Of a stretch of 64,000 bases of DNA, positions 14,580-36,363 are shown piece by piece. The stretch covers positions 434,001-498,000 of the forward strand of contig PERU01000001.1 in NCBI GenBank assembly GCA_002928965.1, read 5' to 3'. Position 1 is the first letter of the stretch. Each line of letters opens with the position of its first letter. The notes below the pieces were generated by a model that saw nothing but the letters and a program-made list of their open reading frames with translations, was not told where the DNA came from and did not search any database. The translations under genes were made by a program, and so were the position numbers. The stretch comes from Methylomonas sp. (lineage in GTDB: Bacteria > Pseudomonadota > Gammaproteobacteria > Methylococcales > Methylomonadaceae).

Positions 14580-15098
14580 ATGCAAAACATGAGTGTCATT
14601 TCCTTATCAAGCTATCAACCGCGATATGCCAAACCTTTGAATAGTAATGCTTTATGGTCTGACGATCTGGAATTGCCGATTCTGGAGCCGCAACAGCAAT
14701 TGAGTACGCTTGAACTGCCGTTGTTTACCTCTAAGGTGCCTGCGGGTTTTCCATCGCCTGCGGATGATCATTTGGAGTCTACGATAGACCTGAATCAGTA
14801 TTGCATCAGCAATCCGCCTGCAACGTTTTTAGTCAAAGTAAAAGGCCATTCCATGATTGAAGCAGGTATTAACGACGGCGATATGTTGGTGGTAGATCGT
14901 TCACTGCGTCCGAATAACAATAGTATCGTGGTGGCGGTGATAGATGGTGAAGTGACGGTGAAAGCATTGGATATGACTACCGATGAAATTTGGTTGCGAT
15001 CAAAAAATTCTGATTATCCAGACTTCCAGATTAAGGAAGGCATGGAGTTGCATATTTGGGGTGTGGTCAAAAACGTGATTCGTTCACTACCGGTATAG
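14580..15098 (+). CDS. umuD: UmuD-like translesion polymerase V subunit (LexA/S24 autoprotease)
   Basis: A RecA-stimulated self-cleaving subunit of DNA polymerase V. The carboxy-terminal S24 peptidase shows nucleophile Ser91 in KGHSMIEAG and Lys128 in EVTVKAL. The probable cleavage site is Ala55-Gly56 in VPAGFPSPADD, aligned with Cys-Gly of E. coli UmuD. At 172 aa it is about 30 residues longer than E. coli UmuD, the extra part lying before the cleavage site. A second ATG at 14589 would shorten it by three codons. umuC follows directly. SOS control is expected, but I could not find a convincing LexA box. Confidence 0.93.
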   Translation: MQNMSVISLSSYQPRYAKPLNSNALWSDDLELPILEPQQQLSTLELPLFTSKVPAGFPSPADDHLESTIDLNQYCISNPPATFLVKVKGHSMIEAGINDGDMLVVDRSLRPNNNSIVVAVIDGEVTVKALDMTTDEIWLRSKNSDYPDFQIKEGMELHIWGVVKNVIRSLPV

Positions 15099-16379
15099 AT
15101 GAGTCCTGAGCCCATATTCGCCATAGCCGATTGCAACAATTTTTACGCAAGCTGTGAAAGAGTCTTCCAGCCCAAACTGAACGGTAAGCCGGTGGTCGTG
15201 CTATCTAATAATGATGGTTGCGTGATTGCCAGAAGTAACGAGGCCAAAGCGCTTGGTATCAAAATGGGTGCGCCTTATTTCAAAATTGAGAAGTATGCCA
15301 AGCAAGAAGGTATTGCCGTATTTTCTAGCAATTATGCGCTATACGGCGACATGAGTCAGCGTGTGATGCAAATACTAAGCAGCTTTGCACCGCGATCTGA
15401 AGTTTATTCCATTGACGAATGTTTCCTGGATTTTACCGGTCTACCGCAGAACCTGACGGATTACAGTTTGGAGATTTGTGCGGTCGTTAAGCAATGGACA
15501 GGTATTCCGATTTCTATTGGCATTGCACCAACAAAGACCTTAGCAAAATTAGCCAACCGTTTAGCAAAAAACGGTCATTCCCAAATGGGACCAGTGTTAG
15601 ATTGGCGCACTATTGCTGATACCGATGCGGTTTTAAAAACCATTGCACTGGATGATCTTTGGGGGATTTCCAGACGCTGGAGAGAAAAGCTCAATCAACT
15701 CGGTATTCATCATGCGTTAGCACTGAAGCAATCTGATCCAAAATATCTACGTCAGCATTTTGGTGTAGTCATGGAACGCATCGTTACGGAGTTGAACGGT
15801 ATTTCCTGTATTGCCTTAGAAGAAATGCCCGCACCGAAAAAACAGATTCTGACCTCGCGCAGCTTTGGTGAACGGTTGACTGACTATAATGATTTACGCG
15901 CAGCGGTGACACACTTTGCCACGCGATCAGCAGAAAAATGCCGACAACAGCAATTGACCACGCAAGTATTAACGGTTTTTATTCATACGAGTCCGTTTGA
16001 TACCGCTAATCCGCAATACTCCAATAGCGCCACCATTGAGTTTGATCGTCCAACCAGTGATACCTCGCAACTGAATGCAGCCGCTCAACAAGGTTTGAAG
16101 CGGATTTTTAAACGCGGATTTTCGTATCAACGTGCCGGTATTTTGTTGCCGGATTTATGGGCAGCCAATGTCTCGCAATGGTCGTTGTTTGATACCGGTG
16201 AAAGCTCATTACGATCTGATCAACTGATGACCGCACTGGACGACATTAACCGCAAGCATGGCAAACGCAGTATTCGTTACGCGAGTGAAATTCTTAGTAA
16301 GCGCTGGCAGATGCGGCAGCAATTCAAGTCGCCTTCGTACACCACCAATATCAAGGAATTGCTGACGATTCAGATTTGA
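15099..16379 (+). CDS. umuC: translesion DNA polymerase V catalytic subunit
   Basis: A Y-family error-prone polymerase that copies damaged DNA with UmuD'2 and RecA. Motifs: DCNNFYASCERVF at the start (metal-binding Asp, steric-gate Tyr), SIDECFLDF (second metal site), IGIAPTKTLAKLANRLAK, and a helix-hairpin-helix after LDDLWGISRRW. The carboxy-terminal UmuC-specific region ends RYASEILSKRWQMRQQFKSPSYTTN. Length 426 aa against 422 in E. coli. Its ATG immediately follows the umuD stop codon, so the two are coupled. Confidence 0.96.
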   Translation: MSPEPIFAIADCNNFYASCERVFQPKLNGKPVVVLSNNDGCVIARSNEAKALGIKMGAPYFKIEKYAKQEGIAVFSSNYALYGDMSQRVMQILSSFAPRSEVYSIDECFLDFTGLPQNLTDYSLEICAVVKQWTGIPISIGIAPTKTLAKLANRLAKNGHSQMGPVLDWRTIADTDAVLKTIALDDLWGISRRWREKLNQLGIHHALALKQSDPKYLRQHFGVVMERIVTELNGISCIALEEMPAPKKQILTSRSFGERLTDYNDLRAAVTHFATRSAEKCRQQQLTTQVLTVFIHTSPFDTANPQYSNSATIEFDRPTSDTSQLNAAAQQGLKRIFKRGFSYQRAGILLPDLWAANVSQWSLFDTGESSLRSDQLMTALDDINRKHGKRSIRYASEILSKRWQMRQQFKSPSYTTNIKELLTIQI

Positions 16380-16607: not shown

Positions 16608-17606
16608 ATGCTGAAATTATATATTTTAACTATCACGTCGTTTCTTACAATAATGACTGTTACTATTTTCGCACATGCGGACTCTCCAGCTATATCTACT
16701 AATAATTGCTCAAAAAATAGGGATATTGAAAATAAAAATTCGATATATATTGAAAGCATGGATAGGTATTTGTTAAATGATGAGATAAATGTTTTCTCAA
16801 GTCAATGCCAACTTTTAAGAAAAAATCCGAATTATGGTAAGGATGGCTATTACAATAATCAAGAATGGCTACCAACAGGTGACGCGTATCTTACTGATAA
16901 CTCAAATATAGCTGATAGAATTAACGAAAAGCTCACTATTGTGGCTGCAGCACATGAACTTTCATTTGATATGAATGTTTATGGCGGAGAAAATTCCTAT
17001 AGAGCAATTGACTTTAATGAAAAAGTGAAAATTAAATGTAATGGAATAATATTTAATGCAAACATTAATAAATATATAACTGCCGAAGACTCAGAAGGAC
17101 AATATTCAGCACAGAATGATGTTAGTTTTTTGAGTTTAGACCAAAGTGAGGTTCTTAAAATAAATGATGCCATTAGTACAAAAAAAATTATGCCGATGAG
17201 ACTTGCAGGATTACCTGTCTCCATGAATGCTGAGCCTGAATTACAGCGCTTCGATAAGCCTGAAACTGTTAAATTCTTACAAAATCATGAGTTGATTCTT
17301 GTTAGTAGGGCAAACCAAGGTAATGAACCAACTGACTCAAGGTTGTTTGTAACAAAGTGTTCAAATCCGCAGATTTCCTATGGCGTTGAAACAGTAACAT
17401 TCCCCTGTGCACCTAAAAAGGATATGTCAGGTGGCGTACTCGTCTATTCAAAAAAAACCGATAAAGGCGTTGGTGAAATATTACAAGATAAAGATGGTCA
17501 CATTTTAGTTTCTGGTCATTTATCTGGCGGTTCAGATATTAATAACACCGAGGAATTCGTACTTATGCGCTATGACGACATTAGAACTGCCATGTGCAAA
17601 AATTGA
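16608..17606 (+). CDS. secreted or periplasmic protein of unknown function
   Basis: A 332-aa protein with a clear signal peptide (MLKLYILTITSFLTIMTVTIFAHADS, cleavage after AHA). The mature part has several Cys residues and no family I can name. Codon use is distinctly AT-rich compared with umuDC just upstream, suggesting recent acquisition. It stands alone on the plus strand with gaps of about 230 and 360 bases around it. Confidence 0.7.
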   Translation: MLKLYILTITSFLTIMTVTIFAHADSPAISTNNCSKNRDIENKNSIYIESMDRYLLNDEINVFSSQCQLLRKNPNYGKDGYYNNQEWLPTGDAYLTDNSNIADRINEKLTIVAAAHELSFDMNVYGGENSYRAIDFNEKVKIKCNGIIFNANINKYITAEDSEGQYSAQNDVSFLSLDQSEVLKINDAISTKKIMPMRLAGLPVSMNAEPELQRFDKPETVKFLQNHELILVSRANQGNEPTDSRLFVTKCSNPQISYGVETVTFPCAPKKDMSGGVLVYSKKTDKGVGEILQDKDGHILVSGHLSGGSDINNTEEFVLMRYDDIRTAMCKN

Positions 17607-17870: not shown

Positions 17871-17904
17871 AAAAAAAGCCCCTACAGTAATCAGCTGTAG
17901 AGGC
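17871..17904 (-). terminator. rho-independent terminator of the small ORF/sRNA transcript
   Basis: A ten-base-pair stem with one mismatch, loop TAATCAG read on the plus strand, and a seven-T tract on the minus strand. It ends the transcript of the 17965-18126 gene. Confidence 0.85.
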
Positions 17905-17964
17905 CATAGAGTGTTGCGGCTAGGAGGAGCCGCGAAATACAACGAGGAGGTTACAACACAAAAA
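17871..17964 (-). ncRNA. candidate sRNA with two anti-Shine-Dalgarno hairpin loops and terminator
   Basis: Directly after the stop of a 53-aa gene, the minus strand folds into three consecutive hairpins. The first has arms TGTAAC/GTTGTA (two G-U pairs) and loop CTCCTC (17955-17938). The second has perfect arms GCGGCT/AGCCGC and loop CCTCCT (17933-17916). The third is a long terminator stem with a mismatch, GCCTCTACAG/CTGTAGGGGC, followed by seven T (17904-17871). CCTCC loops can pair with ribosome-binding sites or with CsrA/GGA-type targets. The layout, a small ORF then CCUCC hairpins then a terminator, recalls the CcsR ('cuckoo') RNAs of Rhodobacter. That homology is by analogy only. Confidence 0.6.
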
Positions 17965-18126
17965 TCATATACGAGCAGGCATCACCACATTCAAGTTACT
18001 CGCTAGCGATGCGGCACCAAACAACAGCGTGGAGAGGATGAATTGACCTGACATAAAGCTCAGTACACCGGTTACAAAAAACAATCCGGTGGTTACGTCT
18101 TTGTATAAGCTTTTTGGAGTATTCAT
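17965..18126 (-). CDS. 53-aa hydrophobic small protein
   Basis: The minus strand reads MNTPKSLYKDVTTGLFFVTG and continues with a second hydrophobic stretch, ending VMPARI. There are one or two membrane-compatible segments and no Cys. AAGGTG lies about six bases before the ATG, and the gene is followed by the hairpin series and terminator described for the candidate sRNA, so it looks like a complete transcription unit. I do not recognise the family. It could be a membrane peptide or mainly the leader of a 3'-derived sRNA. Confidence 0.6.
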   Translation of the reverse strand: MNTPKSLYKDVTTGLFFVTGVLSFMSGQFILSTLLFGAASLASNLNVVMPARI

Positions 18127-18219
18127 CTATTTCACCTTGTCTAAGTTTGGTCGCTTTGTAAGTACGACTTCACTATAAACCTATTCAATAAATAAACAAT
18201 AAGAAAGTTATTACATTAT

Positions 18220-18240
18220 TTGTTTCCATTATTGAAACAA
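18220..18240. promoter_or_regulatory. inverted repeat upstream of the 53-aa gene
   Basis: Perfect 7-bp arms, TTGTTTC/GAAACAA, with a 7-base spacer lie about 95 bases upstream of the small ORF. On the minus strand TTGTTT followed 17 bases later by AATGTA could be a weak promoter. A regulator site is possible but unproven. Confidence 0.35.
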
Positions 18241-18405
18241 TTGACTAATGCTTTTGCGATAACCCACGCAGCATTAAAATGATTACATGCCTATACTGAA
18301 TAAATTATGCCGTTATTGTTTTTATATAAAAATCAAAGGATGCGTAATATCCAGTAGGAAAAATCCAGCGCGAGACTGCAATCAGGTATTGAATGTATGC
18401 AAACA

Positions 18406-18429
18406 ACGAGTCTCGAGCTCGAGACTCGT
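18406..18429. repeat. perfect 24-bp palindrome
   Basis: ACGAGTCTCGAG followed by its exact reverse complement, with no spacer. It lies in a stretch from 18241 to 18551 with no credible gene. It may be an operator or recombination site; nothing links it to a protein. Confidence 0.7.
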
Positions 18430-18444
18430 AAATCACTACTTTTT

Positions 18445-18545
18445 GCGCAACCCTACACCTAAGCAATTATTAAGTTCACTTTTCTATTAGATTCTATATA
18501 GCTTTCTGAACTTAATAACCATGCAGCACTAATATAGGGTTGCGC
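18445..18545. repeat. 101-bp nested inverted-repeat element
   Basis: Outer arms GCGCAACCCTA (18445-18455) and TAGGGTTGCGC (18535-18545) enclose inner arms TTATTAAGTTCA (18467-18478) and TGAACTTAATAA (18507-18518). All arms pair perfectly. It ends six bases before the stop of the 18552-18872 gene, so it could act as its terminator structure, or be a MITE or a recombination site. I checked it against integron attC consensus and it does not fit. Confidence 0.65.
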
Positions 18546-18551
18546 AGTGGT

Positions 18552-36120: not shown

Positions 36121-36363
36121 ATGTCGAAAGCGCAGAACTTGCAGGATAGTTTTTTGAATGCTCTACGTAAAGAGCATACGCCTGTGTCCATTTTTTTGGT
36201 GAACGGTATCAAGTTGCAAGGCCGGGTTGATTCGTTCGATCAATATGTAGTGATGTTGAAAAACACTGTCAATCAGATGGTCTATAAACACGCTATTTCC
36301 ACTATCGTGCCCAGCAAAAATGTCACTATGCATCGCGACAGCGATTCCAGTGATGAGAGCTAA
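36121..36363 (+). CDS. hfq: RNA chaperone Hfq
   Basis: An 80-aa Sm-like hexamer subunit that pairs sRNAs with mRNAs. The Sm1 and Sm2 motifs are intact: [42 protein letters not shown] and [12 protein letters not shown], with the conserved YKHA. The carboxy-terminal tail is short. A strong AAGGAGAAAGAGG precedes the ATG. It is first of the hfq-hflX-hflK-hflC group. Its presence fits the candidate trans-acting RNA at 17.9 kb. Confidence 0.98.

Follow-up and report, generated by a model that had tools for sequence, protein, structure and literature searches.

A Methylomonas locus was found to carry one copy of a conserved structured RNA family which we consider likely, though well short of assured, to comprise WatR-controlled anti-Shine-Dalgarno small RNAs of methanotrophs, made from short WatR-driven transcripts in which a peptide gene is optional. 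The window referred to below is the whole stretch of DNA that was analysed, 64,000 nucleotides in length. In the proposed mechanism acetate, or another signal, would activate WatR, a LysR-type weak-acid regulator, and the promoter would give rise to one short transcript ending at a strong U-tailed terminator. The 5' part of this transcript would encode a ~50-aa membrane peptide, WatS, in most copies, and the last ~95 nt would fold into hairpins that keep CCUCC/CUCCU single-stranded. These loops would pair with the Shine-Dalgarno sequences of target mRNAs and thereby lower their translation, with Hfq probably bound to the U tail and cleavage taking place near the stop codon. We infer the release of a stable RNA, its base pairing, the part of Hfq and the targets from the features described below.

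Layout of the locus and its WatS-like reading frame

As originally predicted, a 53-aa ORF is followed by a pair of hairpins, one with the loop CUCCUC and the other with CCUCCU, and these are succeeded by a strong terminator; the whole feature lies on the minus strand (Table 1), a point on which the original prediction was silent. An outer stem, GUGUU/AACAC, encloses both hairpins in the fold of this copy. The 95 nt after the ORF stop fold with -30.2 kcal/mol as compared to a mean of -17.98 for shuffled sequences (z -4.33; 0 of 200 shuffles as good). A terminator scan reported one such site in 2 kb, with 1.4 expected in shuffles. The promoter was read from the sequence and was not reported by a simple promoter scan; its TATAGT was present in 109 of the 136 regions upstream of fetched WatS-like loci. 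The ribosome site ascribed to the ORF is there in modest form. The ascribed membrane character is borderline as well, the best 19-residue Kyte-Doolittle mean of the peptide being 1.60, at the usual threshold for a membrane segment.

Table 1. Positions of the features making up the locus in the window
Feature	Position	Strand	Basis
Palindrome ATTGTTTCAATAATGGAAACAA (22 nt)	18220..18241	-	Exact fit to the published WatR site ATTGTT-N11-AACAA
Likely promoter, TTGTTT (18199-18194), 16 nt, TATAGT (18177-18172)	18172..18199	-	Read from the sequence, kept across relatives
Shine-Dalgarno-like AAGGTG before the ATG, modest	18133..18138	-	Sequence reading
WatS-like ORF of 53 aa, MNTPKSLYKDVTTGLFFVTGVLSFMSGQFILSTLLFGAASLASNLNVVMPARI, stop included	17965..18126	-	ORF list and homology
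Candidate anti-Shine-Dalgarno RNA (type A), running from the stop codon (excluded) through the T run	17871..17964	-	Fold and model R1
Hairpin 1, loop CUCCUC 17949-17944	17940..17953	-	Fold
Hairpin 2 (GCGGCU/AGCCGC), loop CCUCCU 17927-17922	17916..17933	-	Fold
Intrinsic terminator, 11-bp stem 17905-17877, then T run	17871..17905	-	Terminator scan

A role as leader of a downstream gene was rejected for the window copy, which has a terminator at its end and faces a convergent neighbour (16608-17606, plus strand). That neighbour is a 332-aa ORF with no Pfam family above cut-off. An S24-peptidase gene with a UmuC-like polymerase gene directly after it occupies 14580-16379, making up a umuDC-type pair. 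A perfect 24-nt palindrome at 18406-18429 and nested inverted repeats at 18444-18546 (TGCGCAACCCTA/TAGGGTTGCGCA and TTATTAAGTTCA/TGAACTTAATAA) are perhaps the remnant of a small mobile element. The predicted hfq gene was recovered at 36121-36363 on the plus strand (Pfam Hfq, 2.4e-30), 18 kb from the RNA, and its presence in the window is no evidence for a role of Hfq at the RNA. The element had been said to match neither a tRNA nor a riboswitch. In a search of Rfam 15, only a tRNA scored above the gathering score in the window, and hits at the RNA sites were at chance level.

Hairpin loops rich in GGA are characteristic of CsrB/RsmY-type RNAs, and both loops read AGGAGG on the plus strand, where a transcript could serve as a CsrA/RsmA sponge. 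This reading was rejected on strand evidence and is in our view very improbable indeed. The terminator T run and the conserved promoter sit on the minus strand, the G-U cells in the covariation table pair on that strand only and would become A-C mismatches on the other, and the covariance model R1, described below, matches the minus strand.

The original prediction had missed that the peptide is WatS-like, that a site for a LysR regulator lies upstream and that further copies of the locus exist. In Methylomonas sp. DH-1, five previously unannotated ORFs of ~50 aa have been described as watS1-watS5 (Cha et al. 2023, PMC10355033). Of these, watS1-4 are homologous to each other with one predicted membrane segment, and watS5 is not homologous to them (PMC10355033). 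The LysR protein WatR represses the genes, and acetate switches them on; WatR binds and controls them, with the binding motif ATTGTT-N11-AACAA, and the products are regarded as acetate-tolerance peptides with a proposed action on an RND pump (PMC10355033). The ORF family of the window, multi-copy and from Methylomonas, fits the published WatS peptides; since the WatS1-4 sequences are given in a figure only, the match is one of description and not of sequence identity.

Six homologous ORFs were found in the own genome, meaning the genome that holds the window, and another six in G002, a genome closely related to DH-1. The window peptide had no match in Pfam (E <= 1) or NCBIfam, and in PHROGs only one at chance level (E 0.3). 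Searched at the DNA level, 24 of 61 genomes gave a match, and every one of them belongs to the same genus; with a protein profile, homologues came up in 219 of the 301 genomes of the order, in 29 of 50 genera. Named peptide loci (n = 22) were from Methylomonas (17), 'Methylococcaceae' MAGs (4) and Methylobacter (1). WatS-like peptides of other genera (MNDFYKDILTG...; L121, L125, L127, L141 and similar) were seen without CCUCC hairpins, and downstream of several of them lies another terminator-like hairpin, CCAAGGC..GCCTTGG.

Conservation of the RNA with and without the peptide

Loci were fetched from the best matches listed for the protein profile (219/301) and for R1 (196/301). By hand, 111 regions were fetched in one round and 80 in another (79 R1 matches and one other); further loci were tool-given. 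The 136 WatS-like records include near-identical ones, 105 being non-redundant. Within 75 nt after the stop, CTCCT/CCTCC was present in 58 of these 105 relatives as compared to 24 on average and at most 37 in shuffled sequences, and the complement AGGAG/GGAGG in 4. Ahead of the ORF, the upstream 75 nt contained CTCCT/CCTCC in none of the 105. The remaining 47 WatS-like genes without the motif within 75 nt downstream count against the RNA reading, as do three of the six WatS genes of G002 that are without it, one of which keeps CCCCCCTC.

Two types of 3' element were distinguished. Type A, found in Methylomonas and including the window copy, reads GUACCUCC(C)UCGUUGU or similar, with a CUCCU-loop hairpin in some copies. 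Of the 67 motif-bearing copies not of type B, 19 have a CTCC/TCCT loop closed by a perfect stem; in 4 of them this stem is that of the terminator and in 2 it encloses the first motif. In the 13 that remain the hairpin-2 stems drift (GCGGCU/AGCCGC, GCAGT(A)/(T)ACTGC, GCGGTA/TACCGC, TGCAGTG/CACTGCA). The second CUCCU loop is absent from many type-A copies, which counts against the RNA reading. Type B consists of UAAC-UACCUCCUGGU-GUUA and CAAGCAG-CUCCUCAU-CUGCUUG followed by a terminator, and occurs in other genera as well as in 34 of 35 Methylomonas genomes, mostly with one match each.

The covariance search that had been proposed as a check was run with R1, a model built from 16 type-B sequences (alignment A3; 17 sequences minus the near-identical L154) and containing no type-A copy. 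Within the order, R1 matched 196 of 301 genomes, belonging to 28 of 50 genera. When 321 genomes sampled across the class were searched with stricter filters, at which weak matches are lost, two gave a match: the own genome and another member of its family. Within the window R1 ranked the RNA site first, on the minus strand (29.1 bits, E 0.003, 82,843 bases searched), and the type-B copy of the own genome scored 102.5 bits. The type-A and type-B RNAs would be linked by this window score, a modest one, which counts against the RNA reading. A type-A model, R2, was built from an alignment (A6) holding 11 of the 19 type-A sequences in alignment A5 and matched 35 of 37 genus genomes; its automatic structure misses hairpin 2 and it served only to find copies.

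Base pairing in type B was evaluated on alignment A4, made up of 100 (L187-L286) of the 109 fetched R1 loci with L287-L295 left out, and counted on 96 distinct rows after four identical ones had been collapsed. The cells of the model structure were paired in 97.0%, with 34.7-47.8% in slid controls; 16 of the 20 pairs showed a double change and 110 cells were doubly changed as compared to 19.4 in shuffles, all in an alignment that was fitted to R1 and leans towards its structure. In a MAFFT alignment of 16 rows, scored with a structure read from one of them, 93.6% were paired and 22 cells were doubly changed as compared to 5.9 in shuffles. One of the five measures on this alignment, further pair types, was no better than shuffled (20 versus 20.2). 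The CUCCU letters of the second type-B loop are 95-100% conserved per position within a stem that covaries. By a strict text pattern the motif stands in the first loop of 86 of the 96 rows, in the second of 87, in both of 79 and in neither of 2. A complement of the Shine-Dalgarno core that is predicted to be single-stranded is accordingly kept with varying stems in type B and in 13 type-A copies. The original prediction had staked itself on loops that are conserved as stems drift, and this was borne out by type B and, as far as the second loop is concerned, only in part by type A.

The RNA is not confined to the peptide genes. A WatS-like ORF was found at 76 of the 100 type-B loci, with a stop that falls anywhere from 22 nt ahead of the first modelled RNA base to 5 nt beyond it (median 10 ahead), and none at E < 1e-3 was found at the other 24, which span 11 genera. 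The WatR motif, with up to one change, is kept at 17 of these 24. At one locus (L246) watS has decayed beside an intact RNA, and the own genome holds one ORF-less copy (C16:72809). For type A, the 18 of 30 R2 loci that lie away from already known ORFs were checked; L317, L319 and L320 were left out for short flanks, and of the 15 judged, 10 had a WatS-like frame (E < 1e-3) and five (L322, L325, L328, L323, L324) had none. At L314 and L315 the RNA is kept behind a watS-like frame without the usual ATG, as read by eye. At L323 and L324 another ORF, 54 codons long, extends into the RNA, and its two versions resemble each other (MNPSHRRQPN... and MKLSNCRDPK..., ending VPSRRSQR). In L323 and L324/L332 (G012, G002) this unrelated ORF is placed between a WatR-type promoter and the type-A RNA and is possibly a watS5-like gene.

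RNA loci without a WatS-like ORF, together with WatS-like ORFs without the motif, indicate at the level of genome comparison that peptide and RNA are separable in evolution. The frequent retention of the RNA at loci that have no peptide gene makes an independent regulatory role probable for it. The claim that the element is more than an ordinary 3' UTR thus stood, the model finding it in related genomes also without the ORF, and the ORF-less loci tell against an ordinary 3' UTR as the whole explanation. Conversely, the peptide could be the sole relevant product, with the 3' structure as a stabilising 3' UTR and terminator and CCUCC incidental or acting in cis, for example by damping translation of its own mRNA. 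A function of the peptide is published, the acetate phenotype being ascribed to it and a tagged band of ~7 kDa being reported (PMC10355033); the ORF stop is close to the RNA where an ORF is present, and the motif is not behind every WatS gene. We nevertheless regard a peptide acting alone as unlikely, if the most serious of the rival readings, in view of the 24 ORF-less type-B loci, 17 of them with the WatR motif, and of the decayed or ATG-less frames beside intact RNA. The second loop is moreover among the best conserved parts, and own ribosome sites pair no better with the loops than shuffled ones. The main text of the WatS paper contains neither 'UTR' nor 'sRNA', and has 'small RNA' in its reference list only; the consulted portion gives no 3' UTR content for the overexpression cassettes (PMC10355033).

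Probable link to WatR and pairing with ribosome sites

A pattern stricter than the published motif, ATTGTTTCN{5,9}GAAACAA, had its single match in the own genome at the palindrome of the window, which also matches the WatR motif exactly. With up to one change allowed, the motif was found upstream of 93 of the 136 fetched WatS-like ORFs (0-2 in five shuffles) and at 63 of the 100 type-B RNA loci (0-4 in ten shuffles, 3 in reversed sequence). Judged by this site, the window copy is presumably under WatR control; it is not adjacent to a LysR regulator gene. A divergent LysR gene was present in 63 of the 100 type-B loci, the other 37 holding 509 nt or less upstream, and at 28 of the 30 with tool-given flanks, the two loci lacking it there having only 124 and 507 nt of sequence on that side.

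In the own genome and in G002 the type-B RNA is flanked by the LysR gene and then a methyltransferase-like ORF on one side, and by hisE and then tat-like ORFs on the other. As a family-wide neighbour hisE was rejected, being beside the RNA at 4 of 30 loci only. In three loci (L349, L025, L330) a WatS ORF was seen together with the type-B RNA between a watR-like LysR gene and hisE/tat. The genes watR, smtM (a SAM-dependent methyltransferase) and rstM form one operon that is divergent from another operon (PMC6767647), and by the operon order in these two genomes the divergent LysR gene would be watR. If so, the intergenic region beside the watR operon that harbours the TT deletion of a lactate-tolerant strain (PMC6767647) is also the location of the type-B RNA. 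G002 was rejected as strain DH-1 itself; it is 95-97% identical to a 2-kb piece of plasmid pDH1, which makes it a close relative. With a G002-like arrangement in DH-1, the type-B RNA would be part of the published 500-bp watR promoter cassettes. Lactate tolerance was not raised by a promoter cassette with smtM-rstM (PMC6767647); if that cassette carried the RNA, this speaks against the idea that an additional copy of it helps with lactate tolerance.

The loop sequence CUCCU/CCUCC complements the Shine-Dalgarno core exactly. The 16S 3' end was the standard one, GGATCACCTCCTT, in all five genus genomes tested, and was not found in the own draft genome. Target prediction at ribosome sites, also proposed as a check, did not come out in favour: in a weak test the loops formed duplexes of -7.6 kcal/mol on average with the 39 ribosome sites of the window and of -7.5 with gene interiors, that is no preference, with four ribosome sites and two gene interiors at -12 kcal/mol or below. 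Autoregulation through the own ribosome site gave no signal and was set aside, the pairing being -7.17 as compared to -7.02 for shuffled sites (n = 82; upstream control -4.13; likewise a weak test) and -6.9 kcal/mol in the window copy. Taken as a whole, the original reading as an anti-Shine-Dalgarno RNA is supported in part: the RNA is conserved, structured and found also without the ORF, and the duplex test shows no preference for ribosome sites.

An RNA that binds no ribosome site directly and acts as a sponge or decoy for another regulator, protein or RNA, with affinity for C/U-rich loops would fit the lack of enrichment in this small test of 39 window genes, the many copies per genome and a conservation that reaches beyond the Shine-Dalgarno complement (CUCCUCAU, CCUCCUGGU). 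We consider such a role rather improbable, given the exact complementarity to the Shine-Dalgarno core next to a standard 16S 3' end in the genus, and given that NfeR1, a known anti-Shine-Dalgarno RNA, acts on a ribosome site (PMC10746234).

Taking the family as anti-Shine-Dalgarno RNAs, WatR would control a group of sibling RNAs with the capacity to lower the output of many mRNAs during acid stress, which would be of relevance for strains engineered for acid production from methane. Published watS and watR constructs are candidates for re-examination for the RNA. A more speculative idea, to which we give less than an even chance, is that WatR originally and primarily drove the RNA and not the peptide. 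A pair of LysR gene and small RNA, watR divergent from the type-B RNA, would have spread into several sibling copies in which WatS, decayed or unrelated ORFs stand between promoter and RNA. Several anti-Shine-Dalgarno RNAs, acting after transcription, would then account for part of the weak-acid response that is now credited to the peptides.

Comparison with known systems

A LysR regulator gene divergent from a small RNA gene is known from gcvA-gcvB and oxyR-oxyS. The type-B RNA is likewise divergent from a watR-like LysR gene, a likeness of arrangement only. The CcsR1-4/CIN1 'cuckoo' RNAs behind ccaF1 in Rhodobacter have the CCUCC-type motif. To the extent of the published descriptions drawn on here, they share with the present RNAs an origin from the 3' part of a small-protein transcript, the existence of several siblings and a link to stress. 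They follow a DUF1127 RNA-binding peptide, are driven by an RpoHI/RpoHII promoter, are cut into separate sRNAs by RNase E and stand four in a row in alphaproteobacteria, whereas here an unrelated hydrophobic peptide, a LysR-type site and one RNA per locus are found in gammaproteobacteria. A DUF1127 ORF upstream was looked for, and the window ORF was without any Pfam match at E <= 1.

NfeR1, of the alpha-r14 family of Sinorhizobium, has hairpins with anti-Shine-Dalgarno loops, drifting stems and a LysR-type activator, LsrB, in common with the RNAs described here (PMC10746234). It represses ntrB at the ribosome site of ntrB, has three identical CCUCCUCCC motifs and is Hfq-independent, and the accessible text makes no mention of a peptide (PMC10746234). 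Three hairpins each with CCUCCUCCC were not found in the window copy, which has two loops, CUCCUC and CCUCCU. The RNA resembles both the CcsR/'cuckoo' RNAs and NfeR1 and is a member of neither.

Little turned up on RNA regulators in methanotrophs. In the literature searched, with subscription journals mostly outside the search, no small RNA at watS genes and no such RNA in methanotrophs was found. The consulted portion of a transcriptome paper on DH-1 names RNase P RNA, 6S, SRP RNA and tmRNA, and for Methylosinus sporium, an alphaproteobacterium, EcpR1 and alpha-r45 are reported in the consulted portion of another paper; further papers drawn on were PMC6373157, PMC8625941, PMC10253847 and PMC12403871. 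Close as well are WatS1-5 of DH-1, with which the locus shares ~50-aa peptides that were previously unannotated, several homologous copies, a WatR motif upstream and the genus (PMC10355033). That work, as far as its text was available, treats the peptide (PMC10355033); the RNA described here also occurs without it. If the reading holds, the Rhodobacter layout of a small stress peptide plus a CCUCC RNA is repeated in another class with an unrelated peptide, which suggests a recurrent design.
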